64,000 nt of DNA from positions 72,232,482-72,296,481 of the forward strand of contig NC_089492.1 in the NCBI RefSeq assembly GCF_036850765.1. The letters run 5' to 3'. Positions 6,920-58,363 of this stretch are shown here, piece after piece. The notes beneath the pieces were generated by a model. It made no database searches, was not told where the DNA came from, and saw only the letters and a list, made by a program, of their open reading frames with translations. Position numbers and translations under genes: made by a program. Every line of letters begins with the position of its first letter. The first letter of the stretch is position 1. Source of the stretch: Saccopteryx bilineata. Lineage: Eukaryota; Chordata; Mammalia; Chiroptera; Emballonuridae.

Positions 6920-7044
6920 GCCTTTTTATTTTTATTTATTTATTTTTGTGACAGAAACAGAGAGAGATAGAGAGGGATAGGTAGGGACAGAAAGACAGGA
7001 AGAGAGAGAGATTAGAAGCGTCAGTTCTTTGTTGTAGCACTTTA
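6920..7044 (-). mobile_element. SINE (GCCTGACCAGG type), antisense, 3' part split by L1
   Basis: A T-rich end, then a GA-rich body and AGAAGCGTCAGTTCTTTGTT, which is the reversed 3' end of this SINE type. Its promoter half resumes at 14924 beyond the full-length L1. The shared word TGTTGTAGCACTTTA at the break is the L1 target duplication. Confidence 0.9.
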
Positions 7045-7383
7045 TTTTTCTTTTCCTTTTTATATTGAGTTTATTTTTAAGTTGTTTGTTATTTGTAATA
7101 TCTTTTTTTCTTTTTTTTTTTAATAAATTTTTATTAATGGTAATGGGATGACATTAATAAATCAGGGTACATATATTCAAAGAAAACATGTCTAGGTTAT
7201 TTTGTCATCAAATTATGTTGCAAACCCCTCGCCCAAAGTCAGATTGTCCTCCGTCACCCTCCATCTAGTTCTCTGTGCCCCTCCCCCTCCCCCTAACTCT
7301 CTCCCTCCCTCCCTCCCATGTCCTCCCTCCCCCCCCACCCTTGGTAACCACCACACTCTTGTCCATGTCTCTTAGTCTCATTT

Positions 7384-10300
7384 TTATGTTCCACCAATGT
7401 ATGGAATCATGTAGTTCTTGTTTTTTTCTGATTTGCTTATTTCACTCCTTATAATGTTATCAAGATCCCACCATTTTGCTGTAAATGATCTGATGTCATC
7501 ATTTCTTATGGCTGAGTAGTATTCCATAGTGTATATGTGCCACATCTTCTTTATCCAGTCTTCTATTGAAGGGCTTTTTGGTTGTTTCCATGTCTTGGCC
7601 ACTGTGAACAGTGCTGCAATGAACATGGGGCTACATGTGTCTTCACGTATCAATGTTTCTGAGGTTTTGGGGTATATACCCAGTAGAGGGATTGCTGGGT
7701 CATAAGGTAGTTCTATTTGCAGTTTTTTGAGGAACCACCATACTTTCCTCCATAATGGTTGTACTACTTTACAGTCCCACCAACAGTGAATGAGGGTTCC
7801 TTTTTGTCCACAGCCTCTCCAACATTTGCTATTACCCGTCTTGTTGATAATAGCTAATCTAACAGGAGTGAGGTGATATCTCATTGTAGTTTTGATTTGC
7901 ATTTCTCTAATAACTAATGAAGCTGAGCATCTTTTCATATATCTGTTGGCCATTTGTATCTCTTCCTGGGAGAAGTGTCTGTTCAAGTCCTCTTCCCATT
8001 TTTTTATTGGATTGTTTGTTTGTTTGTTGTTGAGTTTTATGAGTTCTTTGTAAATTTTGGATATTAGGCCCTTATCTGAGCTGTCGTTTGAAAATATCAG
8101 TTCCCATATAGTTGGCTGTCTGTTTATTTTGATATCAGTTTCTCTTGCTGAGCAAAAACTTTTAATTCTGATGTAGTCCCATTCATTTATCTTTGCCTTC
8201 ACTTCTCTTGCCATTGGAGTCAAGTTCATAAAATGTTCTTTAAAACCCAGGTCCATGAGTTGAGTACCTATGTCTTCTTCTATGTACTTTATTGTTTCAG
8301 GTCTTATATTTAGGTCTTTGATCCATTTTGAATTAATTTTAGTACACGGGGACAGGCTGTAGTCGAGTTTCATTCTTTTGCATGTGGCTTTCCAGTTTTC
8401 CCAACACCATTTGTTGAAGAGGCTTTCTTTTCTCCATTGTGTGTTGTTGGCCCCTTTATCAAAGATTATTTGACCATATATATGTGGTTTTATTTCTGGG
8501 CTTTCTATTCTGTTCCATTGGTCTGAGTGTCTATTTTTTTGCCAATACCATGCTGTTTTGATTATCGTGGCCCTATAATATAGTTTAAAGTCAGGCATTG
8601 TAATGCCCCCAGCTTCATTCTTTTTCCTTAGGATTGTTTTGGCTATTCGGGGTTTTTTATAGTTCCATATAAATCTGATGATTTTTTGTTCCAGTTCTTT
8701 AAAAAATCTCATAGGGATTTTGATGGGAATTGCATTAAATTTGTATATTGCTTTGGGTAATATGGCCATTTTGATTATATTTATTCTTCCTATCCAAGAA
8801 CAAGGAATATTTTTCCATCTCATTGTATCTTTTTCGATTTCCCTTAACAATGCTTTGTAATTTTCATTATATAGGTCCTTTACGTTCTTTGTTATGTTTA
8901 TTCCTAGGTATTTTATTTTTTTTGTTGCAATCGTGAAGGAGATTATTTTTTTGAGTTCGTTTTCTAATATTTCATTGTTGGCATATAGAAAGGCTATGGA
9001 CTTTTGTATGTTAATTTTGTATCCTGCGACCTTACTGTATTGGTTTATTGTTTCTAATAATCTTTTTGTGGAGTCCTTTGGGCTTTCGATGTATAGGATC
9101 ATATCATCAGCAAAAAGTGATAGCTTTACTTCTTCTTTTCCGATATGGATGCCTTTTATTTCTTTGTCTTGTCTGATTGCTCTGGCCAGAACTTCTAGCA
9201 CCACGTTGAATAAGAGTGGAGAGAGTGGACAACCCTGTCTTGTTCCTGATTTAAGGTAGAAAGTCCTCAGTTTTATGCCGTTTAATAGGATGTTGGCTGA
9301 TGGTTTATCATATATGGCCTTTATCATGTTGAGCTATTTTCCTTCTATACCCATTTTGTTGAGAGTCTTAAACATAAAATTGTGTTGTATTTTATCAAAA
9401 GCCTTTTCTGCATCTATTGATAAGATCATGTGGTTTTTGTTCTTTGTTTTGTTGATATGGTGTATTACGTTAACCGTTTTGCGTATGTTGAACCATCCTT
9501 GAGATTCTGGGATGAATCCCACTTGATCATGATGTATTATTTTTTTAATATGTTGTTGTATTCGGTTTGCCAGTATTTTGTTTAGTATTTTAGCATCTGT
9601 ATTCATTAGAGATATTGGTCTGTAGTTTTCTTTCTTTGTGCCATCCTTGCCAGGTTTTGGTATGAGGGTTATGTTGGCCTCATAAAATGTGTTTGGAAGT
9701 ATTGCTTCTTCTTCAATTTTTTGGAAGACTTTGAGTAGAATAGGAACCAAGTCTTCTTTGAATGTTTGATAGAATTCACTAGTATAACCGTCTGGGCCTG
9801 GACTTTTATTTTTGGGGAGATTTTTAATAGTTTTTTCTATTTCCTCCCTGCTGATTGGTCTGTTTAGGTTTTCTGCTTCTTCATGACTCAATCTAGGAAG
9901 GTTGTATTGTTCTAGGAATTTATCCATTTCTTCTAGATTGTTGTATTTGGTGGCATATAATTTTTCATAGTATTCTACAATAATTCTTTGTATTTCTATG
10001 ATGTCTGTGGTGATCTCTCCTCTTTCATTTTGGATTTTATTTATTTGAGTCCTGTGTCTTTTTTCCTTGGTGAGTCTTGCCAAGGGTTTGTCAATTTTGT
10101 TGATCTTTTCAAAGAACCAGCTCCTTGTTTTATTGATTTTTTCTATAGTTTTTCTGTTCTCTATTTCATTTATTTCTGCTCTGATTTTTATTATCTCCTT
10201 TCTTCGGCTGGTTTTGGGTTGTCTTTGTTCTTCTTTTTCTAGTTCCTTAAGGTGTGAAGTTAAGTGGTTTACTTCGGCTCTCTCTTGTTTGTTCATATAG

Positions 10301-11211
10301 GCCTGAAGTGATATGAACTTTCCTCTTATTACTGCTTTTGCTGCATCCCAGAGATTCTGATATGTCGTATTTTCATTTTCATTTGTCTGTATATATCTTT
10401 TGATTTCTGCGCTTATTTCTTCTTTGACCCATTCATTTTTTAGAAGTATGTTGTTTAGTTTCCACATTTTTGTGGGTTTTTCCCCCTCTTTTTTGCAGTT
10501 GAATTCTAGTTTTAAAGCTTTATGATCAGAAAATATGCTTGGTACAATTTCAATTTTTCTAAATTTGCTGATATTGTCTTTGTGGCCCAACATATGGTCA
10601 ATTCTTGTGAATGTTCCATGTACACTAGAGAAAAATGTATACTCTGTCGCTTTGGGATGAAGTGTCCTGTAGATGTCTATCATATCCAGGTGTTCTAGTA
10701 TTTCGTTTAAGGCCACTATATCTTTATTGATTCTCTGTTTGGATGACCGATCTAGAGCCGTCAGCGGTGTATTGAGGTCTCCAAGTATGATTGTATTTTT
10801 GTTAGTTTTTGTTTTAAGGTCAATAAGTAGCTGTCTTATATATTTTGGTGCTCCTTGGTTTGGTGCATATATATTAAGGATTGTTATGTCTTCTTGATTC
10901 AACTTCCCCTTAATCATTATGAAATGACCATTTTTGTCTTTGAGTACTTTTTCTGTCTTGTAGTCAGCATTATTAGATATGAGTATTGCTACACCTGCTT
11001 TTTTTTGGGTGTTGTTTGCTTGGAGTATTGTTTTCCAGCCTTTCACTTTGAATTTGTTTTTATCCTTGTTGCTTAGATGTGTTTCTTGTAGGCAGCATAT
11101 AGTTGGATTTTCTTTTTTAATCCATTCTGCTACTCTGTGTCTTTTTATTGGTAAGTTTAATCCATTTACATTTAGTGTAATTATTGACACTTGTGGGTTC
11201 CCTACTGCCAT
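7384..11211 (-). pseudogene. L1 ORF2 (endonuclease-reverse transcriptase) with one amber codon
   Basis: A single frame runs about 1,275 codons from [19 protein letters not shown] to a stop at 7384-7386, the usual L1 ORF2 length. It is broken once by TAG at 9334-9336, after NKMGIEGK. The N-terminal APE-like endonuclease keeps the expected acidic and His residues: E43 in LQETH, D145 and N147 in GDLNTPL, D206 in RIDHMLGH, and the SDH near residue 230. The reverse transcriptase has DAEKAFD before the stop, and [13 protein letters not shown] and FADDM after it. The C-terminal cysteine segment (CWRGC..., ending CWWDC) is present. The stop therefore splits the polymerase between its first and second catalytic aspartate motifs. 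The enzyme normally nicks target DNA and copies L1 RNA in place; this copy would make only the N-terminal half. Confidence 0.95.
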
Positions 11212-11536
11212 TTTATAAATTGCTTTCTGTTACTTTTGTATCTAGTTTGATTCTTCTCTTTTGTTTTTCTATCATTTGTTTTTGTTTGTTTGTGTTCCAT
11301 ACTTCTTTCCTCTGTTGCTACCTTTTTTAAGTCAAGTGTTTTTGTGGTGGTTTTTTTAAGGGTGGTTACCATTAAGTAATGAAAAGGGTACCTACCATAT
11401 TCATTGTAGTACCCTATCTTATAAGTATTTCTGCACTTCATCATCCTTTGCTACTGTTAATCTCCATCCTCTCCTCCCTTTTTTTCCTTTGTTGTCACAG
11501 TTTAAGTTTGGTTTTATTGTGTTCTTGGTGGAGCTG
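11212..11536 (-). other. L1 spacer between ORF1 and ORF2
   Basis: AT-rich inter-ORF spacer of the L1. An 80-codon frame overlapping the ORF2 start (11202-11444) is Lys and Thr rich without domain similarity, so I treat it as spacer and not a gene. Confidence 0.7.
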
Positions 11537-12502
11537 TTACTTGTGGTGTTGTTTTCTTTTGTTCTTTGAATCTGGTTGGAAAACCCCCCTTAGTATTTCC
11601 TGGAGTGGGGGCTTTCTGTTGATAAATTCTCTCATCTTTTCTGTATTTGTGAATGTTTTTATATCTCCTTCATACTTGAAGGATAGCTTTTATGGGTATA
11701 GTATTCTTGGCTGAAAGTTCCTCTCTTTCAGGGCTTTAAATATTGGGGTCCACTCTCTTCTAGCTTGTAGAGTTTCTGCTGAGAAATCTGATGATAATCT
11801 AATAGGCCTTCCTTTATATGTTGTATTCTTCTTTTCCCTGGCTGCCTTGAGAATTTTTTCTTTGTCATTGGTTTGTGTCATCTTTATTATGATGTGCCTT
11901 GGAGTGGGTTTGTTGGGGTTAAGAAAACTTGGTGTTCTGTTTGCTTCTTGAATTTGAGGCTTTAGTTCCTTCCACAGGCTTGGGAAGTTCTCGTCTATTA
12001 TTTGTTTGAGTATATTCTCCATTCCATTTTCTTTCTCTTCTCCCTCTGATATACCTATTATTCTTATGTTATTCTTTCTGATGGAGTCAGACAATTCCTG
12101 TAGGGCTTTCTCATTTTTTATTATTCTTGAGTCTCTTTCTTCTTCTCTCTGTTGTGCCTCAAGTTGTTTGTCTTCTATTTCACTAATCCTATCTTCAATC
12201 TGGGCTGTTCTGTTAGCTAAGCTTGTTACCTCGTTTTTCAGCTCGTGAATTGAGTTTTTCATTTCTGTTTGATTTGTTTTTATAGTTTCAATTTCCTTGG
12301 TAATATATTCTTTGTGTTCATTGAGTTGTTTTCTGATCTCCCTATATTGCCTTTCTGTGTTTTCTTGTATATCTCTGAGTATTTTTAAGATTTCTAGTTT
12401 AAATTCTCTGTCATTTAGCTCCAAGGCTTCCAATATGTTAAGTCTTTTCTCCATAGATTTTTCCACATCTATTTGTGTTACCTCTCTTTCTTTTGTATCC
12501 AT
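11537..12502 (-). pseudogene. L1 ORF1 (RNA-binding coiled-coil protein) with premature stop
   Basis: The frame opens with MDTKEREVTQIDVEKSMEKR. Residues 35-140 are rich in heptad-like Leu, Ile, Glu and Lys and would form the trimeric coiled coil. An RRM-like part starts at NIRIIGISEGEEKENG (about 146-161), and the C-terminal domain follows to ARREWTPIFKALKERNFQPR. A TAA at 11690-11692 ends the product after 270 residues. The same frame stays open for about 50 more codons to a second TAA at 11537-11539, so the expected protein is about 320 residues. The lost part is the end of the C-terminal domain used for RNA binding and chaperone activity. No frameshift is seen. Confidence 0.93.
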
Positions 12503-42189: not shown

Positions 42190-42499
42190 TGTTGGTTAAA
42201 TAAGTTTGTAAATATGATGTATATGTTTGCTTGGTTATCGTTTGCATTGGGGGCTGGGCAATGCCAGATATAGTGATATAGAGGTCTGTGAAGTTGCAGG
42301 TTGCCTTCCTTATTGGGAGGGGCCATTGTCTTGTTAATGTTTACTGGAAGAGAGATTCTGCCCCCACCACCGAGAGTAGCAGAAGGATTTCTTCTCTCTG
42401 TCCTCCCTGATCCCTTGTCCTCCATGGGAAAAGCGGGTTTTCTGCTTTTTCCTTGGCTTTTCTTGTGGCTTGCCTGTCTTGCAGCGGCCCCTGGCCTTT
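42190..42499 (+). repeat. 5' LTR, shortened
   Basis: It aligns with the 3' LTR from TTGGTTAAATAAGTTTGTAA to CGGCCCCTGGCC. About 105 bases present in the 3' copy (51437-51545) are missing here at 42480. No clear tRNA primer-binding site was found just after it. Confidence 0.8.
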
Positions 42500-42539
42500 C
42501 AGCTGGAGTAGTTTGCGGCAGGATTCCGATCAGATCAGT

Positions 42540-43615
42540 ATGGAGCCGCCACCCTTGAGGGATGGGGTAGAGGACTGGTTGCTGTTTTGGCTTCCCATGG
42601 TTGTCCTTTTAGGAGCCGTGGGCTGGATGTTTTATACTCAAGAGGAAGCCAGGAGTTCTGTGCGAGAAGCCGCCGGAGGTCAAAAGCTCCAGGATGAATT
42701 GCAAATCAAATGGCAGAAAAGGCTGGAATTGGAGCGAGCACTGGAAAAGGAATTACGGGTTCATGAGTTGCAGTTTGCCCTGGAAGCTGAACATTTGCAC
42801 CGGCAGTTGTTGGATAAACAATTGCGGGTTCAAGAGTTTGAGTCTCAGCTTCTGGCCAGAGGCCAGCAGCCACAGGAGCCTAAACGGTCGCCAAAGGAGC
42901 AACAGCATCTGTGCTGGTGGACTGGCTTTGAGTCAGCGGGAACAGGCGCTTCTAACTTCTCTTCTGAGGATGAGAAAGCTCAGGCTAAAGCTGCCATGCA
43001 CACATTCAGAGCTTGACCAGTGGTCGCCAAGAAGGTAAAAACCCAGCAACAAAGAGTCCCTCAGGGGTAGCCACAGCCTCCTGCCCAGGCAATGGAACAC
43101 TCTATGGTTCAGCCCTATACCCAGGCAGAGCTGATGGAGTTGGGGCACAATTTAGGCAAAACCCTACTGAATCCCTGGTAGCTTGGTTACTACACTTATG
43201 GGACATAGGGGTGGATGGCATCATGCTTTCCAGAACAGAGATGGAGAAATTGGCCACCATTACCACACACTCCTCCTTGAGGCAGCGTCTTCAGAACTGC
43301 CATGGCAACCCAGGAGACCATACCCTATTAGAATGGGTGATGGCTGCCATTTGTATGGTCTGGCAGAATGCTGGAGAATTGCCAGGAATAGTGAGTTGGT
43401 GGCAGTGCTACAGTAAGTTAGTAAAGCTCCTTCAGGAACTAGGTGTGAAGAATGCAGCTTTCCATCCTGGGTTCCATGGGCCAGACGAGGAAGTATTTAT
43501 GGTGAAAATGAGGGACTTTATCCTTGCTAGCACCTTGTCAGCCCTATTTGGGTCACTTGTGGCTATCTTGGGCCTCTATGTGTGCCAGTCCATCAATGAG
43601 GTTACACATCATTGA
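42540..43615 (+). pseudogene. Retroviral gag-like remnant
   Basis: The first segment (42540-43016) begins MEPPPLRDGVEDWLLFWLPM. A hydrophobic stretch of about 20 residues (12-32) is followed by a long Glu, Arg, Leu and Gln-rich coiled coil (about 45-110). The second segment (about 43013-43615), in another frame, carries a helical part with ESLVAWLLHLWDIGVDGIML and ends in a second hydrophobic stretch near 43540-43600. Position after the LTR and before a protease makes it gag. The family resemblance of the second segment to endogenous gag N-terminal regions is from memory and moderate. A frameshift joins the two segments; no zinc knuckle was found. Confidence 0.65.
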
Positions 43616-45178: not shown

Positions 45179-47118
45179 ATGGCTAAAAGAAAGAAAGATG
45201 AAGAGTATCATACTTTTCAGCAGGAATGGACAGAGGAATTCACTTTTGTGGAGAGAGCAGGTTCTTCAGTGTGTCTAATATGCAATGATAAAATTGCGTT
45301 GATGAAACGGTCAAATATAAAGCGGCACTTCGACACATGACATTCTACATTTGGATCGAAATATCCAGTGGGGGGACAGCAGGAAGAAAGCATGTCAAGA
45401 GCTACCGTGCAGAGTGCAAGCTAGTCAGCAACAACTCCATCTTTGGACCCAACAAGGTGACTGGAATTCGGCTAGCTTTGCTGGTGCTTTAGCAATTGTG
45501 AGAAACAGAAAGCCATTCACAGATGGGGAGTATGCCAAAACATTCATGCTTGATGTTGCCAGTGAATCTTTTGATGACTTTTTGGATAAAGACAAAATAA
45601 TCAAATGAATAAAAGACATGCCTCTGTTGGCAAGAACTGTTCATGATCATACCATCATGATGGCAAATCAAATTGAGGCAACACAAGTGAAGGACATAAA
45701 TACAGCACCATTCTTTTCTCTCGCTTTGGATGAGTCAACAGATGTAAGCCATTTATCCCAGTTCAGTGTGATTGCAAGGTATGCTGCTGGTGACACACTA
45801 CATGAAGAAAGTCTTGCTTTTTTGTCTATGAAAGAGACAACAAGAGGGAAGGATTTATTCAAGTCTTTCACTGAATTCGCTAAGGAAAAAAAATCTACCG
45901 ATGGATAAACATTTCGGTGTGTACTGATGGTGCTCCATGAATGGTGGGGAAAAACAGAGGATTCATAGCGCTTCTTCATGAATATGAAAAGAGACCCATC
46001 TTAAGTTTTCACTGCATCTTATTGATACATCAGGAGGCGCTTTGTGCTCAGATGTGTGGCAAGCAGCTTGGTGAGGTGATGTCGCCGGTCATTCGGGTGG
46101 TCAACTTTATTGTTGCCCGAGCTTAAATGATCACCGTTTAAAACACTGCTGGATGAAGTGGGGAATAATTGTCCTGGTCTGCTTCTGCACAGCAATGTGC
46201 ATTGGTTGTCAAGAGGGAAGGTGCTCAGCTGTTTAGCGGCTTGTCTGAGTGAAATCTGGACTTTTCTTGAAATGAAAAACATTGAGCATCCTGAGTTAGC
46301 TAACACTGAGTGGCTCCTGAAGTTCTACTATCTCATAGACATGACTGAATATCTGAACCAGCTCAATGTAAAAATGCAAGGTATTGGAAATACAGTCTTA
46401 TCCCTTCAACAAGCAGTGTTTGCATTTGAAAACAAGCTGGAACTCTTCATCACCGACATTGAAATAGGTTGTTTACTACACTTTGAAAAACTGGGAGAGT
46501 TTGAAGATGCATGCACAGCAGTGACCCTGCTCAACATCTTGATCTCCAGCAGTTAGTGGGCTTCACATCTAATCTCCTGCAGTCATTCAAAGAGTGCTTT
46601 GGAGAATTTTGTGAGCGCACTCGTCTTTTTAAGTTCATCACCCATCCACACGAGTGTGCAGTGGACAGCACCGACCTGAGTTATATCCCTGGTGTCTCTG
46701 TCAAAGATTTTGAGCTACAAGCTGCTGACCTGAAGGCCTCAGACATGTGGGTGAATAAGTTCAAGTCACTGAATGAAGATTTGGAAAGACTTGCACGACA
46801 GCAAGCAGAGTTGGTGAGCAAACACAAGTGGGGAGAAATGAAAAATCTTCAACCTATGGACCATCTGATTGTCAAGACTTGGAATGCACTTCCCATCATA
46901 TACCACACACTGCAGTGTGTGAGTATTGCTGTACTGACAATGTTTGGTTCTATGTATGCATGTGAGCAGTCTTTCTCACATCTAAAGAATGTTAAGACCA
47001 ACCTACGATCACGTTTAACGATGGAAGTCTCAACACCTTCATGAAGCTTAACCTCACCATGTATCAACCAGACTACAAAGCCATCAGCAAAACCATGCAG
47101 CACCAGAAGTCTCATTAA
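45179..47118 (+). pseudogene. hAT transposase, GTF2IRD2/ZBED-like type, decayed
   Basis: It opens MAKRKKDEEYHTFQQEWTEE. A zinc-finger-like C-x2-C followed by H-x4-H is interrupted by an in-frame TGA at 45338-45340 (codon 54). Further on are LALDESTD (first catalytic Asp region), VCTDGAP (second Asp region), an FHC-x-H-like motif near 46005, and SMYACEQSFSHLKNVKTNLR in the C-terminal hAT dimerisation part. Several frameshifts divide it into frames at 45351, 45618, 46158 and 46511. Expected length is about 640 residues. It normally cuts and pastes the element; this copy cannot make a full protein. Confidence 0.88.
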
Positions 47119-48500: not shown

Positions 48501-49402
48501 GCACAGGCCTTGAGTATATTTGATCCTGCCAGGCCCTGTGAGCTGTATGTCCATATAACCTCAGAGGGGTTTGAATGGGGCTTGTGGCAATTGACAGAGT
48601 GCTTCCAGCAACCTATTGGGTTTTGGTCCCAATTATGGAAAGGTGCTGAAGTCCGTTACTCATTAGTGGAGAAACAGTTGGCAGCTGTGTATGCTGCCCT
48701 CCTGGCAACTGAGAGTATTACAACCACAACACCAGTTCCAGTCAAGACAACATACCCTATTGCAGAATGGGTGAGAGATTGGGCAACCAAACTACATAGT
48801 GGTATGGCCCAAACCTCCACCCTGGCCAAATGGGGTGCCTACCTGCAACAACGCTGTGCTCTTAGCACCAACCCATTGAGGGCAGAACTGCAGGAAGTCT
48901 TAGGTCCAGTCACCTATGCGACCTTAGAGTCAGGTGCAGCTGAGGCCCAGGAGGCAGAACCTAAAGTCAGTCCCTAACAGGAGGGGTGACACCCATCCCC
49001 GAAGATGCCTATTATACTAATGGTTCCAGCAGGGGCCAACCTGCCAAGTGGATGGCCATAGCCTTTCATCCAGCCACTGAAACTCTTTGGATGGACACAG
49101 GTACAGGCCAGAGCAGCCAATGGGCAGAATTAAGAGCTGTTTGGCTAGTTGCTCATAATGAACCTTCACCTCTGGTGTTCTGCACTGACAGCTGGGCTGT
49201 CTATCGTAGACTGATCCTTTGGATTGCTACTTGGCACACTAACCAGTGGATGGTAATGCACCACCCACTACAAGGTCAGGCCATGTGGCAGGACTTATGG
49301 GAAATAGGACATCAGAAGCAGGTGACAATATATCATGTCATGGGGCATGTCCCTCTAGCCCATCCTGGAAATGATGAGGCAGATACGTTGGCAAGGGTGT
49401 GA
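48501..49402 (+). pseudogene. Retroviral connection and RNase H remnant
   Basis: Two long frames, 48510-48977 and 48986-49402. The first is the connection domain (QQPIGFWSQLWKGAEVRYSL). The second is RNase H: YYTNGSS, where the first catalytic Asp is replaced by Asn (codon 49019-49021), then QWAELRAVW (Glu kept), FCTDSWAVY (Asp kept) and the His and Asp of AHPGNDEADTLARV. A TAA at 48975-48977 lies between them. Confidence 0.88.
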
Positions 49403-52195: not shown

Positions 52196-55052
52196 CCCTT
52201 GTTCCCAACCTTTTTTGTGCCATGCCCCACCTTAACCTTTCTAAAATTTTTATGTCCCCCCCCCCATGTAACATACATAATTTTTAACATTAAAAAATTG
52301 ACTTGTTCACTTAATAAACATAAATGATAGGTTCTAGGAAGAAATCACTATGAAATTGTTAACAAAACACAGTAAGTAAAATTTCAAAACATATAATGAA
52401 AAACAGAAATTTAAATTCCAAATAATTTTAATACAGATTTTTTCATATTAATTTATTATTTTAATTTAGTGTGATCCTTGCACTTGATGCTTGCTGCACA
52501 GAGATTTTATATTAGATTCCAATTTGGTTAGCTTTAGTCTCAAGTCTCCACGTTGTGTTATATCCAGCCGATTTCTTTTTTTTACCAGTAAATCATTTAC
52601 AGCACTAAATCCACATTCAGCAAAAAATGAAGATGGAAACGGTAGCAATAGTTTTCTTGCACATTTGGTTGAATTTGGGTATTTGATTTCTGTTTCCTCA
52701 CAAAGCCATGCCATCGCTCCTTTGATATTAAATAAAGCTTTAACTGACTCATCATTTTGCAATTCTGCGAGTTCTTCTTGATACTGCATATTTGATGTAT
52801 CAGACAAATCCACTAACATTGGCTGCATCATCCATGTTGGGAAATCAATTTGTTTAAAATCAGAAAATCTTTCTTTTAAATCAGCCGATAGAATATTCAA
52901 ATGATTGACAATAACAAGTAAAGCGATATCAGTTACTTCACATTTTTGGAGCCAATGAAACTGTTTAAAGTTTTTGTTGTTAATATGTTTCTGACATAAC
53001 TCAATATTGGTAATGAAACCAAATATCTTTGCTTTTGCATTGACAAGAGTTTTATTTGTTCCTTGAAGTTGCTTATTTAATATATTTAGTTTTTCAAAGA
53101 TATCAGCTAAATAACTTACAAATGCTTTACCATCTATTGTTAACAGATACTTCATTTCAGGTTTGTCACTTAAAAAATCACTAAGAGTATCAAACAGTTC
53201 CATAAATCTTTTCAAACAGTTTCTTTTAGATAGCCATCTGACTTCAGTATGAAGTAAAAGTCTCACATGGTCTTCATTTTGTTCTTCACAAAATAGCTTG
53301 AAAAGACGCTCACATTTGGCACTAGCTTTAATAGCATTAACACACTTTATTACTGTATGTAATACTTCATTCAGAACAGGCGAGATGTTTTTAGCTACCA
53401 AGTTTTCTCTATGAATAACACAATGCACAAGAATCATTTCTGGATTCGCATCTTTCATCAATTTTAAGCAGCTATTTTTCTTGCCCATCATATTGGGAGC
53501 ACCATCTGCAGCACAAGATGTTATATTTTTCATTGGTATATCATCGACATCTAAGTAGTTTTTCAGCTTATTATATATATCTTTGGAGGTACTGGTGCTT
53601 TCTAATCTTTTACAGAACATTTCTTCAGCAAAATGTCCTTTATCAATATATCTTACGTAAGTTATCAATACTGCCTCACTGTCTCTCAAAGTTGATTCAT
53701 CCATTTGCAAGGAGAATTTTCTTGTTTTCAGCTTTTCAATAAGTTGTTTTTCAATATCCTCACTCATTTTGTCTATTCTTCTGCTAACTGTATTGTCACT
53801 GAGTGGCATAGCTTTTACATCTTCGTCAACTTTTTTAAGAACCGTTTTAAGAAATGCTGATATTGACGGTTTTATTAAATTCTCTCCTATAGTGTGATTT
53901 TCTCCAGTTTTAGTGATGAATAAAGAAATTTGATAACTAGCCTCAAGAACACGATTATTAGTTGAAGTATGAGCAGTAAATAGAGACTTTAATGTTGTTC
54001 TTTTTTCAAAATTTTTCTTTAAAGTTTTAAAGTAACTCAAATCTGAATTAATATGACACTATGTTTCGCCCTCAAATGTGCCTCAAGACGACCTTGTTTC
54101 ATTGATTCATTGGTCAAGCATTGCTGGCATAAAAGACAAAAAGGAATCCGCTCATCGTGAACAGCGGGTATGAACCCAAATTTTAAATATTCCTCCGAAT
54201 ATTGACGAGTTTTTTTCTTGCTTGCACCACTCATTTTACTACGGGCTATAAGAATAAAAATAAGATCAATTAAAAACTAATATTAAAATATGTGTTAAAA
54301 TATATTCAATGTGACATAGAGTAAATGTATACTAAAAATTCATATTTATTTAAATGTATGTAACACATTTACTACACTACCACCGCAAATCAAAAGGTAT
54401 CTATATTTTTTCCACTTGACAAAATTTTCTGGAAAGTTATGCTTCTAAAATTAAAATTGTCATGCATGCACTATTATAGCCCCAATAATATTTATAAAAT
54501 ATTAGTGGTTTCTAGCCCCGATGCAAGAAGTACTTAATAAAGAGTTTAATATTGATAAAAATAAAATCAAATACCAATTATATCTATACAATATATATAT
54601 GTATATTTATTAAATCAACGAGCTTTTACAACAGTTTTGACTGACACTTATTTCAAATTAACACCAACTGAATGATGTGAAACACAACAGAAGTTGCGAT
54701 GGGCCAATTAGGTGAGAATAACTGCATTGTTTAGCGAGTTTTTAAAATGTCCGGTGTTCCCCGCGGCAGACTGCACGCATCCCCCGCGGTGAACCCAGGA
54801 CGAAGTTTACTTGATGACGCCAATCACCCAGTTGATATTTTGGTCTCATCAAATGAAATTATACTTAATAATTATTTACCGCAATTATTTAAGAATTGCA
54901 TTTTTTGTTAAATTTGGCACCGATATCTAGCATTGCATTTAAATGGCCCGGGGCAAAAGAGTTAAAGTCGTGTCAAGTCCATTTTCAAATTGCCTCCCTT
55001 AACTATCGAATTGCCCCCCTGTGGGGCGTGGGCCCCACGTTGGGAAACACCA
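52196..55052 (-). mobile_element. Autonomous hAT DNA transposon, nearly intact gene
   Basis: The ends TTGTTCCCAACCTTTTTTGT (from 52199) and GGCCCCACGTTGGGAAACAC (ending 55050) are inverted. Subterminal words ATGCCCCAC and GTGGGGCGTGGG also mirror each other. It lies inside a SINE whose two halves join correctly without it. The octamer duplication is not clean, and the outermost 5 bases are mutated on both sides. It carries one transposase gene on the minus strand. Confidence 0.88.
52466..54234 (-). pseudogene. hAT transposase, single frameshift
   Basis: The first frame (54234-54037, 65 residues) starts MSGASKKKTRQYSEEYLKFG and holds a BED-type finger: FCLLCQQCL, then AHLRAKH. It ends at a TGA where the second frame takes over (SDLSYFKTLKKNFEKRTTLK), so one small indel near 54045 is the only break. 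The second frame is open for about 524 residues to 52466. It has QMDEST (catalytic Asp at residue 114), SCAADGAPNM (Asp at 179), HCVIHRENL (207-214) and the C-terminal hAT dimer segment PFPSSFFAECGFSAVNDLLV. Total expected length is about 590 residues, in the range of Buster/SPIN-like transposases. The lack of other stops indicates a recent arrival. Confidence 0.93.
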
Positions 55053-55741: not shown

Positions 55742-56089
55742 TTACACTGGGGAAAAATTTTTTGTTGTATCCACAAATACACTTGTTCTTACCTAATGTG
55801 AGTGTGCTGATCTCAAATCTGACATTAGTTTTTCTCTGTAAGCTACAGTTTTTTTGCAATTCAAGATTTTAGGTTTTTATCTTATTGTAAAATTTTCAAC
55901 ATTTAGTTTAACATAATGGAGTAGAATGTCTTCTTGAGCATCATCTTTTTGAAAGTATAATAACTTATATAATGCAGTAAAATACACTAATACACTAAAA
56001 GATATGATTGCATCCGAATTTGTCTACAATTTCAAAATAGTACATATTAAAACACTTATTTTAATCATAAAATTTGCACAAAATTTACT

Positions 56090-58035
56090 TAAATTCCATG
56101 CAGGCAAAAATCTGCGTTTGTAGCTCTTGTGATTGTGTACTTCTTGAGGACAATCTCGTTTGATGCTCCAGCAGTAGTCTGCTCATCACTAACAGCTCTA
56201 AGATTTTCAGGAAACTTATTAAGGTGACTGTTCAAGAAGTGAATGTTAACGTTCATGTTACATCCAATGTCACAGAAACCAACAGCATCCTTTTGAACTA
56301 GAACTTCATAGTTTTCTGCCTTTTTGTTGCCAAGGAAGTTCTTTGTAACTGCCGCAAAAGACTGCCACGCTGCTTTCTCCTCCTTATTCATCTTCCTGGC
56401 AAATTCTTCATCACGTATGAGGGTTTGAATTTGAGGTCCATCAAATAAACCTGCTTTTATCTTCTTGAAAAACAAGGCAGGAAAAGCAGAAATAATATGT
56501 TGAAAGCATTCACTTTCTCTATTCAAAGCCTGAACAAACTGCTTCATTAAGCCAGGTTTGATGTGAAGTGGGGGAAAAATGATCCTGTTTCAATTAACTA
56601 CAGTTTTATTCACAATATTTTGCATCCCTACTTCCAGAGTTTCACGTTTTGACCACTCCTTCTGTGTCCAGTGTTTCTCTCGAGCTCAGCTGTCCCACAA
56701 ACACAGAAAGCAAAGATACTTTGTGAAACCTTTCTGTTGTCCTAGCAGGAAATTTACCATTTACGAATCCACACAAATGATCCAGTTATGCTCCCCATAC
56801 TTCAGAAAGTCAAGAACAATTTTTATGTCATTATAATCTTCCCACAGATGGTTGAATAACCAATTGGAACTGCTGCATAAACATTACTGTGAGTAGGAGA
56901 ACATATTTCAGACTCCATTTAGAGCTGCCAAGAAATAGACACCATTTTGTTGGACTGTAAGTGGTAACACCTAGCTGGCTGAGAAGACTACTGATATCAT
57001 GACAGTAAACAAAGTGTTTGTCTTTGGAAAAAAAGTCCACAAAAATTTGTTCACACTTCCTGAAATGGGATACTTTAGCTCAGTGGTCCCCAACTTTTTG
57101 GGGCCATGGACTGGTTTAATATCAGAAAAAATTTTCATGGACTGGCCTTTAGGGTGGGATGGATAAATGTATCACATGACAGAGACAAGCATTAAGAGTG
57201 AGTCTTAGATGAATGTAACAGAGGGAATCTGGTCATTTTAAAAAAATAAAACATCACTCAGATTTAAATAAAAATAAACGGAAATAATGTAAGTTATTCC
57301 TTCTCTGCAGACCAGTACCAAATGGCCCACAGACCGGTACTGGTCCGCGGCCTGGGGGTTGGGGACCACTGCTTTAGCTGACCAGTGAAATACATTCTTT
57401 TCTTGAAGCCTGGAGGCTAATAACTCAGCTGTTTTCTTTGATAGGCCCAAATCTCTTACTAAGTCATTCAATTCAGGTTGGCTAAACTGCTGAGGGGTTA
57501 ATGACTGCTTGGCATCAGAAGAAGACCCTTCAGATTCTATAACCATTTCCTCATGCATCTTATCAAAATACACTTGATCACCATGTTCACTTTCTTCGTC
57601 CTTAGAAGAAATAAAACCATTGAAAACTGGAACCAGGAGTGTCTCAGAGTGTGGGATAGGTCGTATTGCTGAAGGAATATTAGAATATGCAATTATATGC
57701 CATTTTTTCTTGTCAGTGCCCTTTGTATGGATCAGACGAAAACAAAAGTCACTGCTGTGGTCCTTAGGTTCACGCTGAACCATGGGAATATCAAAAGGCA
57801 TTCCTTTGCATTTTCCTTTTGTCCAGTCACAAAGTATTTCCTCACAATTATGACATACAATATGAGGAGCCCAATTCTTGTCTTGATCGCCAAGGGGAAT
57901 GTGAAAATAGGCAATATATGCACATGTCACAAATGATGAAATATTGCACCTTTGACATTGAAGTGTGTAACAGCCACATATATAACAGAAAGTGTCAGGA
58001 CTATTTTTACATTTAAGCCTACTTGAAGAAGCCAT
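56090..58035 (-). pseudogene. Transposase-like gene of the CACTGGGG element, broken
   Basis: It starts MASSSRLKCKNSPDTFCYIC and is open for about 220 codons. A cysteine-rich first part (FCYICGCYTL; IVCHNCEEIL, a C-x2-C pair) is followed by an acidic stretch (KDEESEHGDQ) and a helical motif (LNDLVRDLGLSKKTAELLAS). After the inserted hAT the frame resumes (FSKDKHFVYCHDISSLLSQL). Frames then shift. A region at about 56660-56800 reads EHNWIICVDS, a stop, then FLLGQQKGFTKYLCFLCLWD. A C-terminal frame runs LHIKPGLMKQFVQALN to FLNSHLNKFPENLRAVSDEQ. The true C-terminus continues out of frame as ADYCWSIKRDCPQEVHNHKS (56182 downward). I recall similar proteins as repeated uncharacterised loci in arthropods. 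Expected length is about 600 residues. No host gene resembles it to my knowledge. Confidence 0.8.
57081..57371. mobile_element. Non-autonomous hAT, CAGTGGTCCCCAACTTTTTG family
   Basis: A 291-bp element with termini CAGTGGTCCCCAACTTTTTG and GGGGGTTGGGGACCACTG and a perfect octamer CTTTAGCT at 57073-57080 and 57372-57379. It inserted in the open frame of the Chapaev-like gene and is therefore younger than that insertion. Confidence 0.96.
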
Positions 58036-58363
58036 GATTCAATCTTAAAACAAAATAAGAGGGTGTTTTTATCAGATAATAATTTTTTACATTTAAAAAC
58101 AACTACAATTATGTAAAAGTGATGTTTGTAAAACATTAATTGCCTTGTGGTTATGTTCAATCCAAGAGTTGTTGCCCTGTAACTCCAATTTAAAAACCAA
58201 TGCATACCATTAACTGTAACAAAAAGAAATTAAAATTGCATAAAAACTAGACTATACACCAAAAAACAGATTTCAGATTTGGAATCAGCAATGCAGAAAT
58301 ATATAGAAACATTTCTAAAACCTCATGCAACAGAAAATAAAAAAAATATTGTTCCCCGTGTTA

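Follow-up and report, generated by a model that had tools for sequence, protein, structure and literature searches.

We examined a 64,000-nucleotide stretch of the genome of the sac-winged bat Saccopteryx bilineata (the window), in which an earlier note, made from the letters alone, had pointed out a DNA transposon copy. The copy begins with CACTGGGG at 55745 and ends with CCCCGTG at 58360, and its flanks, ATTA to the left of it and TTAT to the right, form a TTA duplication within A-TTA-T (Table 1). When the flanks are joined, they are collinear through the junction with an L1 at window positions 7043-8102 (score 354, against 76 for the left flank alone and 284 for the right alone), indicating that the duplication was made on insertion. 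The claims of a 2,616-bp element with a TTA duplication, and of contiguous L1 after its removal, therefore hold. The same is true of the guess that the genome was bat-like: pieces of 15, 21 and 82 residues of S. bilineata DLGAP5 (P0191) are 100% identical in the genome and a 21-residue exon-edge piece is 81% identical. Saccopteryx is a genus of the family Emballonuridae according to the lineage record of S. leptura.

The terminal inverted repeats are real, but shorter than the roughly 135 bases first proposed. Their similarity can be followed for about 117-127 bases, and is weak between the first 20 bases and the core; the best ungapped arms (55805-55861 and 58234-58290) span 57 nt with 75% complementarity. 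The gapped local score is 48, and 500 first-order Markov resamplings of one arm reach no more than 39; the end-anchored score over 180 nt is 77, and 500 such resamplings reach no more than 52, which disposes of the possibility that no inverted repeat would appear on alignment. Inside the element we found a 291-bp hAT-type insertion with an exact 8-bp duplication CTTTAGCT, absent from the earlier note, so that the element without this nested insert measures 2,317 bp.

The transposase starts at 58035 on the minus strand, and its N-terminal frame is open up to the nested insert. The middle part follows in the frame that a 299-bp insertion would produce; the catalytic part resumes the first frame, interrupted by three stops, and the C-terminal end is read in yet another frame. 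Frame shifts, stops and a 76-bp deletion bear out the description of a broken transposase-like protein, and its C-x2-C pairs exist as well: two of the three N-terminal pairs and one pair in the catalytic part are intact. Across 64 relatives there is little or no variation in the DDE residues or in the motifs C(2)C, LH and H(4)H; this conservation marks D270, D324 and E519 as the putative catalytic triad. The window copy retains the second Asp (D2), C(2)C, LH, H(4)H and E, with Gly in place of the first Asp (D1).

Chapaev3 transposons, as characterized in the relevant sections of PMC4079192, have CAC/GTG ends, a TWA target (W, A or T) with an outer A and T, and a transposase with C(2)C, LH and H(4)H motifs. 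Because the window copy has 5'-CAC...GTG-3' termini, a TWA duplication with A to its left and T to its right (ATTA/TTAT) and these three motifs, its assignment to the Chapaev3 group, as delimited in those sections, is supported, and the proposed Chapaev-like superfamily can be stated more exactly. Three pieces of the transposase and three relatives reached no curated Pfam cut-off and matched no Pfam transposase family at E up to 1; the best E value was 0.17 in a sequence search of PDB and 0.02 in a fold search of BFVD. The bracovirus copy of Garfield mentioned in PMC4079192 was not seen by the fold search. The lack of any Pfam transposase match also speaks against two other superfamilies, PIF/Harbinger and EnSpm/CACTA, as do the motifs and fold, which fit the CMC-Transib (RAG1/Transib) group. 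Harbinger elements do make TWA duplications, and EnSpm/CACTA elements have CAC ends with 2-3 bp duplications. EnSpm, in the description drawn from PMC12730594, further resembles our element in its CAC..GTG ends, 3-bp duplications and C(2)C and H(3-4)H motifs, so that it is separated by the target rule alone and not by motifs. With the exact A-TWA-T rule and the LH motif given for Chapaev3 in the cited part of PMC4079192, we consider membership in PIF/Harbinger or EnSpm/CACTA very improbable.

The element belongs to a genomic family. A 501-bp query of its own genome returned 2,919 loose candidates, which are not copy counts; all 40 places scored (window included), on 13 contigs, matched almost all of the query with at least 93% identity. 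In the 39 other copies fetched for end scoring, the left end was recognised in 38 and the right end in 38 (39 and 38 of 40 with the window, whose mutated right end is missed by the end motif although its TTA is read directly), so that the absence of other copies with the same ends is excluded. The termini of these copies are mostly CACTGGGGAAC..GTTCCCCAGTG. Among the 39 recognised left ends 29 abut TWA, 25 of them as ATWA; among the 38 recognised right ends 21 abut TWA, every one as TWAT. An identical TWA pair is present in 13 of the 37 copies with both ends. Several of the copies L009-L047 have shortened target duplications that still fit A-TAA-T (left ATAA, right AATT or ATCA), as if one or two bases had been trimmed.

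For dating we used the window copy and the first 20 fetched copies in two pieces, for which 15 and 19 of the 21 passed the length filter. The mean Kimura two-parameter distance to the majority sequence is 3.8% and 3.2% for the two pieces (2.7% and 2.2% with CpG masked), and that of the window copy 5.5% and 4.2%. At assumed substitution rates of 2.2-2.7e-9, the copies would have spread perhaps 8-17 million years ago, and the window copy would be about 11-25 million years old. The tree of copies (26 of 38, those with both pieces) is star-like, with terminal length 0.889 and internal length 0.030, and none of 37 copies has an open frame longer than 302 amino acids.

Many copies are deletion derivatives. 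The 76-bp deletion removes 24 transposase codons and shifts the frame; in a strict count over the window copy and 37 others with both ends, the same junction is found in 30 of the 38, the segment is kept in six, L047 shows both forms and L033 neither. Counting by protein match gives 31 copies with the deletion and seven without. A second deletion of about 320 bp takes out D1 in 13 of 37 copies (23 are continuous there and one is otherwise); its breakpoints agree to within 8 bases, and in nine of the 13 they are the same. Because the same deletion junctions recur in independent insertions, defective elements have evidently been multiplied, and most simply the enzyme was supplied to them in trans. 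The window copy is one of the amplified 76-bp-deleted derivatives.

When 5.8 billion proteins were searched with two regions of the transposase, 360 and 282 relatives reached E 1e-3 or better, and the best 120 of each were examined; the statements in this paragraph refer to those. The top match, at 82% and 88% identity, is the uncharacterised Saccopteryx leptura protein P0002, followed by unnamed proteins about 70% identical; the nearest named non-bat relative, that of a stick insect (P0041, among the best 120 of 360), is about 67% identical. Named relatives among the matches listed come from a stick insect, beetles, a psyllid, a stomatopod, a copepod, a crab, a leech, Hydra, two poison frogs and a snake, in agreement with the relatives in arthropods and other invertebrates that the earlier note had named. 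Relatives from both Hydra and Helobdella were found, and these are hosts listed for the Chapaev3 tree in the legend of Fig. 1 of PMC4079192. Saccopteryx was the only genus among named mammals, and the same database returns DLGAP5 from many bats and other mammals; at the protein level, this goes against orthologues throughout mammals. Scans of viral contigs and of prokaryote genome contigs for relatives of the transposase found none. One protein named as from a Pseudomonadota metagenome-assembled genome (P0024) falls among these animal transposases; it lies on a 2,652-bp contig and is likely animal contamination.

In a transposase tree of 32 rows the window and S. leptura proteins pair (support 100/100) and then join the stick insect Bacillus rossius (100/97). 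A Ranitomeya frog groups with the snake (100/100), and Phyllobates groups with Hydra (98/95), so that the transposase tree is at odds with the host tree. We infer that the Chapaev3 family entered the sac-winged bat lineage horizontally, as the earlier note had proposed; what supports this is the tree and the patchy matches, and not near-identical donor DNA. Patchy loss can mimic transfer, and the low identity of P0041 would also suit an old mammalian CMC transposon that was inherited vertically and lost elsewhere. Yet the sampled copies are star-like and only 3-4% from their majority, no other named mammal is among the listed matches although the database is rich in bats and mammals, and the bat clade stands with an insect rather than with the frogs or the snake; purely vertical descent accordingly strikes us as a long shot.

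Several observations weigh against the reading of a horizontally acquired, amplified Chapaev3 family. The nearest non-bat protein is only about 70% identical, so that transfer rests on patchiness and topology. The group assignment comes from comparison of features with the published description of Chapaev3. Of the 37 copies with both ends 24 lack an identical TWA pair, some of them being trimmed. The copies were chosen by their likeness to the window copy, which gives its subfamily more weight, and the rates are assumed; both points make the ages uncertain. The two deletions do not simply nest: of the 13 copies that lack D1, L031 and L047 either retain the 24-codon segment or show both forms, and so are not plain carriers of the 76-bp deletion; nor did the tree recover a single origin for the D1 deletion (best split Jaccard 0.47, with nine of the 13 copies in the tree). 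With these points counted, we nevertheless hold with considerable confidence that the feature in the window is a dead copy of a Chapaev3 cut-and-paste family that sac-winged bats acquired horizontally and that expanded there.

The course of events would be as follows. A Chapaev3 family would have entered the sac-winged bat lineage by horizontal transfer and then expanded. Judging by fold and motifs, the intact transposase would be a RAG1/Transib-like DDE enzyme that cuts at CAC ends and inserts into A-TWA-T, leaving TWA duplications. The window copy would descend from an amplified derivative that already lacked 24 transposase codons, and for this reason was probably moved in trans by intact enzyme; after insertion it would have decayed, and the hAT element would then have jumped in.

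The S. leptura protein P0002 is more than a transposase. Its first 563 residues are transposase and residues 564-666 are DLGAP5, identical at 98 of 103 positions to residues 678-780 of S. bilineata DLGAP5; in a structure model of P0002 this tail has very low confidence. In S. bilineata the main DLGAP5 gene lies at C4:44978262-45021371 (+), and part of its 3' end is repeated in inverted orientation at C4:45167570-45176029. A Chapaev3 copy stands upstream of the duplicate exons on the same strand (duplicate and copy together, C4:45167570-45179789; L051 and L052), and the corresponding stretch of the main gene (L053) has no Chapaev3 copy. Over 564 residues, the transposase at this locus shares 97.7% identity with P0002; a single TAG interrupts its frame at residue 105. 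The duplicate 21-residue exon matches P0002 at 21 of 21 residues, against 20 of 21 for the main gene; the next exon is 95% identical to P0002 in duplicate and main gene alike. At the end of the transposase, this locus reads AGGTAC instead of the usual AGCTAC, which creates a GT splice donor (among 42 copies, 25 have AGCTAC, one AGTTAC and one AGGTAC, and in 15 the pattern was not matched). In S. bilineata DNA, the duplicate exon has an acceptor and a phase that give exactly the junction seen in P0002.

From these matches we infer that the locus combining the DLGAP5 duplicate with a Chapaev3 copy is common to the two species and predates their split, and that in it a sister of the window copy may form a predicted transposase-host chimera. 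Transposase and host exons are joined in frame by predicted splicing in the S. leptura protein, which is a gene model; the open frame is not kept in the related S. bilineata, owing to the TAG at residue 105. Among the entries listed in searches of the open-access literature, with subscription papers and preprints outside their scope, none reported Chapaev in Emballonuridae or a fusion of DLGAP5 with a transposase. The bat-wide and mammal-wide transposon surveys reportedly published in 2023 by Paulat et al. and Osmanski et al. may list this Chapaev3 family.

A second search scored 65 places from 8,943 loose candidates (again not copy counts). Among the 65, L054 (C4:288233833-288235521), a Chapaev3 copy with a complete 571-codon open frame, was the only other place matching residues 1-564 without a stop, and a place on C11 matches residues 44-523 without one. 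As a baseline, 40 decayed copies including the window copy were compared with the majority codons (468 synonymous and 1,731 nonsynonymous changes and 147 stops over 18,341 codons). Against this the DLGAP5-locus copy has 15 synonymous and 21 nonsynonymous changes (Fisher p 0.0066), L054 has 18 and 31 (p 0.013), and the window copy has 14 and 48 (p 0.76). The nonsynonymous/synonymous ratio is 1.40 at the DLGAP5 locus and 1.72 in L054, versus at least 2.0 in all 38 decayed copies longer than 350 codons; the ratio of the corresponding rates (dN/dS) is 0.29 between the two open copies, versus 0.69 over 666 pairs of 37 decayed copies.

Such low nonsynonymous change can mean a host role or only past selection on an active transposon. 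We think it probably reflects selection on the active transposon before insertion, together with the picking of best matches, and not host function. L054 was found as the second-best protein match and is thus a biased pick, an active lineage existed if defective copies were, as is probable, moved in trans, and the S. bilineata stop at residue 105 counts against a role conserved for the full-length protein. The opposing observation is that synonymous change per codon in the two open copies (0.028 and 0.034) is about that of decayed copies (0.026), because of which they are not simply younger. The suggestion that the open S. leptura copy is merely young, given its low protein change, is countered by the synonymous change at the matching S. 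bilineata locus. A bolder scenario, which we rate as rather unlikely, is that one copy of the horizontally acquired Chapaev3 was exapted upstream of the inverted DLGAP5 3'-end duplicate, where a single-base splice donor near the end of the transposase gene would yield a chimera of a nearly complete RAG1-like DDE transposase with a DLGAP5 (HURP) C-terminal tail. Selection would maintain the chimera at least in S. leptura, while in S. bilineata it would be decaying or would use a later start; it, or an L054-like open copy, could have supplied or restrained the enzyme that moved defective copies.

Table 1. Positions in the window of the transposon copy, its parts and its nested insertion
Feature	Positions	Strand	Remarks
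Chapaev3-type DNA transposon copy	55745..58360	-	2,616 bp with nested insert, 2,317 bp without; other genomic copies with same ends
TTA target-site duplication, left	55742..55744	.	
TTA target-site duplication, right	58361..58363	.	also by empty-site alignment
Left terminal inverted repeat, degraded	55745..55861	+	
Right terminal inverted repeat, degraded	58234..58360	-	CACTGGGG end shorter by one base
Transposase, N-terminal part, open frame	57380..58035	-	2/3 of the family's N-terminal C-x2-C pairs intact
Transposase, middle part, other frame	56831..57079	-	first catalytic Asp is Gly; Asp in 64/64 relatives
Transposase, catalytic part	56179..56853	-	second Asp, C(2)C, LH, H(4)H, E; three in-frame stops
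Transposase, C-terminal remainder, shifted frame	56088..56178	-	after 76-bp deletion; junction read in 30/38 copies including window
Nested hAT-type short element	57081..57371	.	14-bp perfect ends CAGTGGTCCCCAAC
8-bp duplication CTTTAGCT of nested element, left	57073..57080	.	
8-bp duplication CTTTAGCT of nested element, right	57372..57379	.	

The window holds other transposon-like pieces. A hAT/DUF4371-like transposase with a 524-codon open frame lies at 52466-54040 (-), 1.7 kb from the element, with a Pfam match below the cut-off; it is possibly a young hAT copy, and inverted repeats around it gave no clear ends. A second hAT-like transposase fragment at 46158-47044 (+) has a weak dimerisation-domain match, retrovirus-like RNase H pieces occur at 48510-49402 (+), and a nearly complete L1 with long ORF2 and ORF1 pieces spans 7384-12502 (-). 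Two adjoining open frames at 42453-43615 (+) are without Pfam match and may represent a processed host gene.

The closest known systems are the Chapaev3 families Conan, Merrow and Garfield, which in the sections of PMC4079192 that treat them share the CAC/GTG ends, the TWA target between A and T, the C(2)C/LH/H(4)H transposase, recurrent horizontal transfer and deletion derivatives. Their length is similar too (Merrow_PM 2,451 and Garfield_BM 2,289, against about 2.3 kb for the bat element), whereas the bat transposase is single-exon (the 571-codon frame of L054) and those of Merrow and Garfield are two-exon. Conan occurs in a mammal, the tenrec, and no bat appears in Table 1 of PMC4079192; our comparison with the three families is by description. 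A fly with Chapaev3 fragments is noted in PMC3630058. The bat transposons treated in the pertinent part of PMC4298943 likewise combine bat-insect sharing with recent amplification (Buster2 in an evening bat, Kenshin in Myotis davidii), although these are cases from vesper bats and other superfamilies, and ours is a Chapaev3 of an emballonurid. Horizontal entry as the best reading is in line with the repeated transfers recorded in these portions of PMC4079192 and PMC4298943.

The likeness to Transib transposase and RAG1 is remote, with 9-14% identity and the N-terminal part of the model unmatched. Transib and RAG1 also make 5-bp duplications, in contrast to the TWA of the bat element. Host-transposase fusion genes are said to arise by exon capture, as reportedly set out by Cosby et al. 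in 2021. The DLGAP5 candidate resembles these in that a transposase is joined in frame to host exons by splicing, and differs in that a Chapaev3 transposase lies upstream of the host exons and that its partner is a duplicated DLGAP5 3' end.

The element represents a new family, although its kind and the way it spreads are both known already, and it is the predicted DLGAP5 chimera that could surprise. Since PMC4079192, in the sections used here, reports Chapaev3 in a single mammal, the tenrec, an emballonurid burst would extend bat DNA-transposon invasions beyond vesper bats and to another superfamily. The bat family is also a clear case of amplified defective derivatives, and for the study of RAG evolution a RAG1-like transposase that worked in a mammal during the last tens of millions of years would be of interest. 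As a candidate transposase capture, the DLGAP5 locus is datable and shows both the splice-donor change and the host duplication, and it makes the question of how such a fusion starts testable in two sister species.
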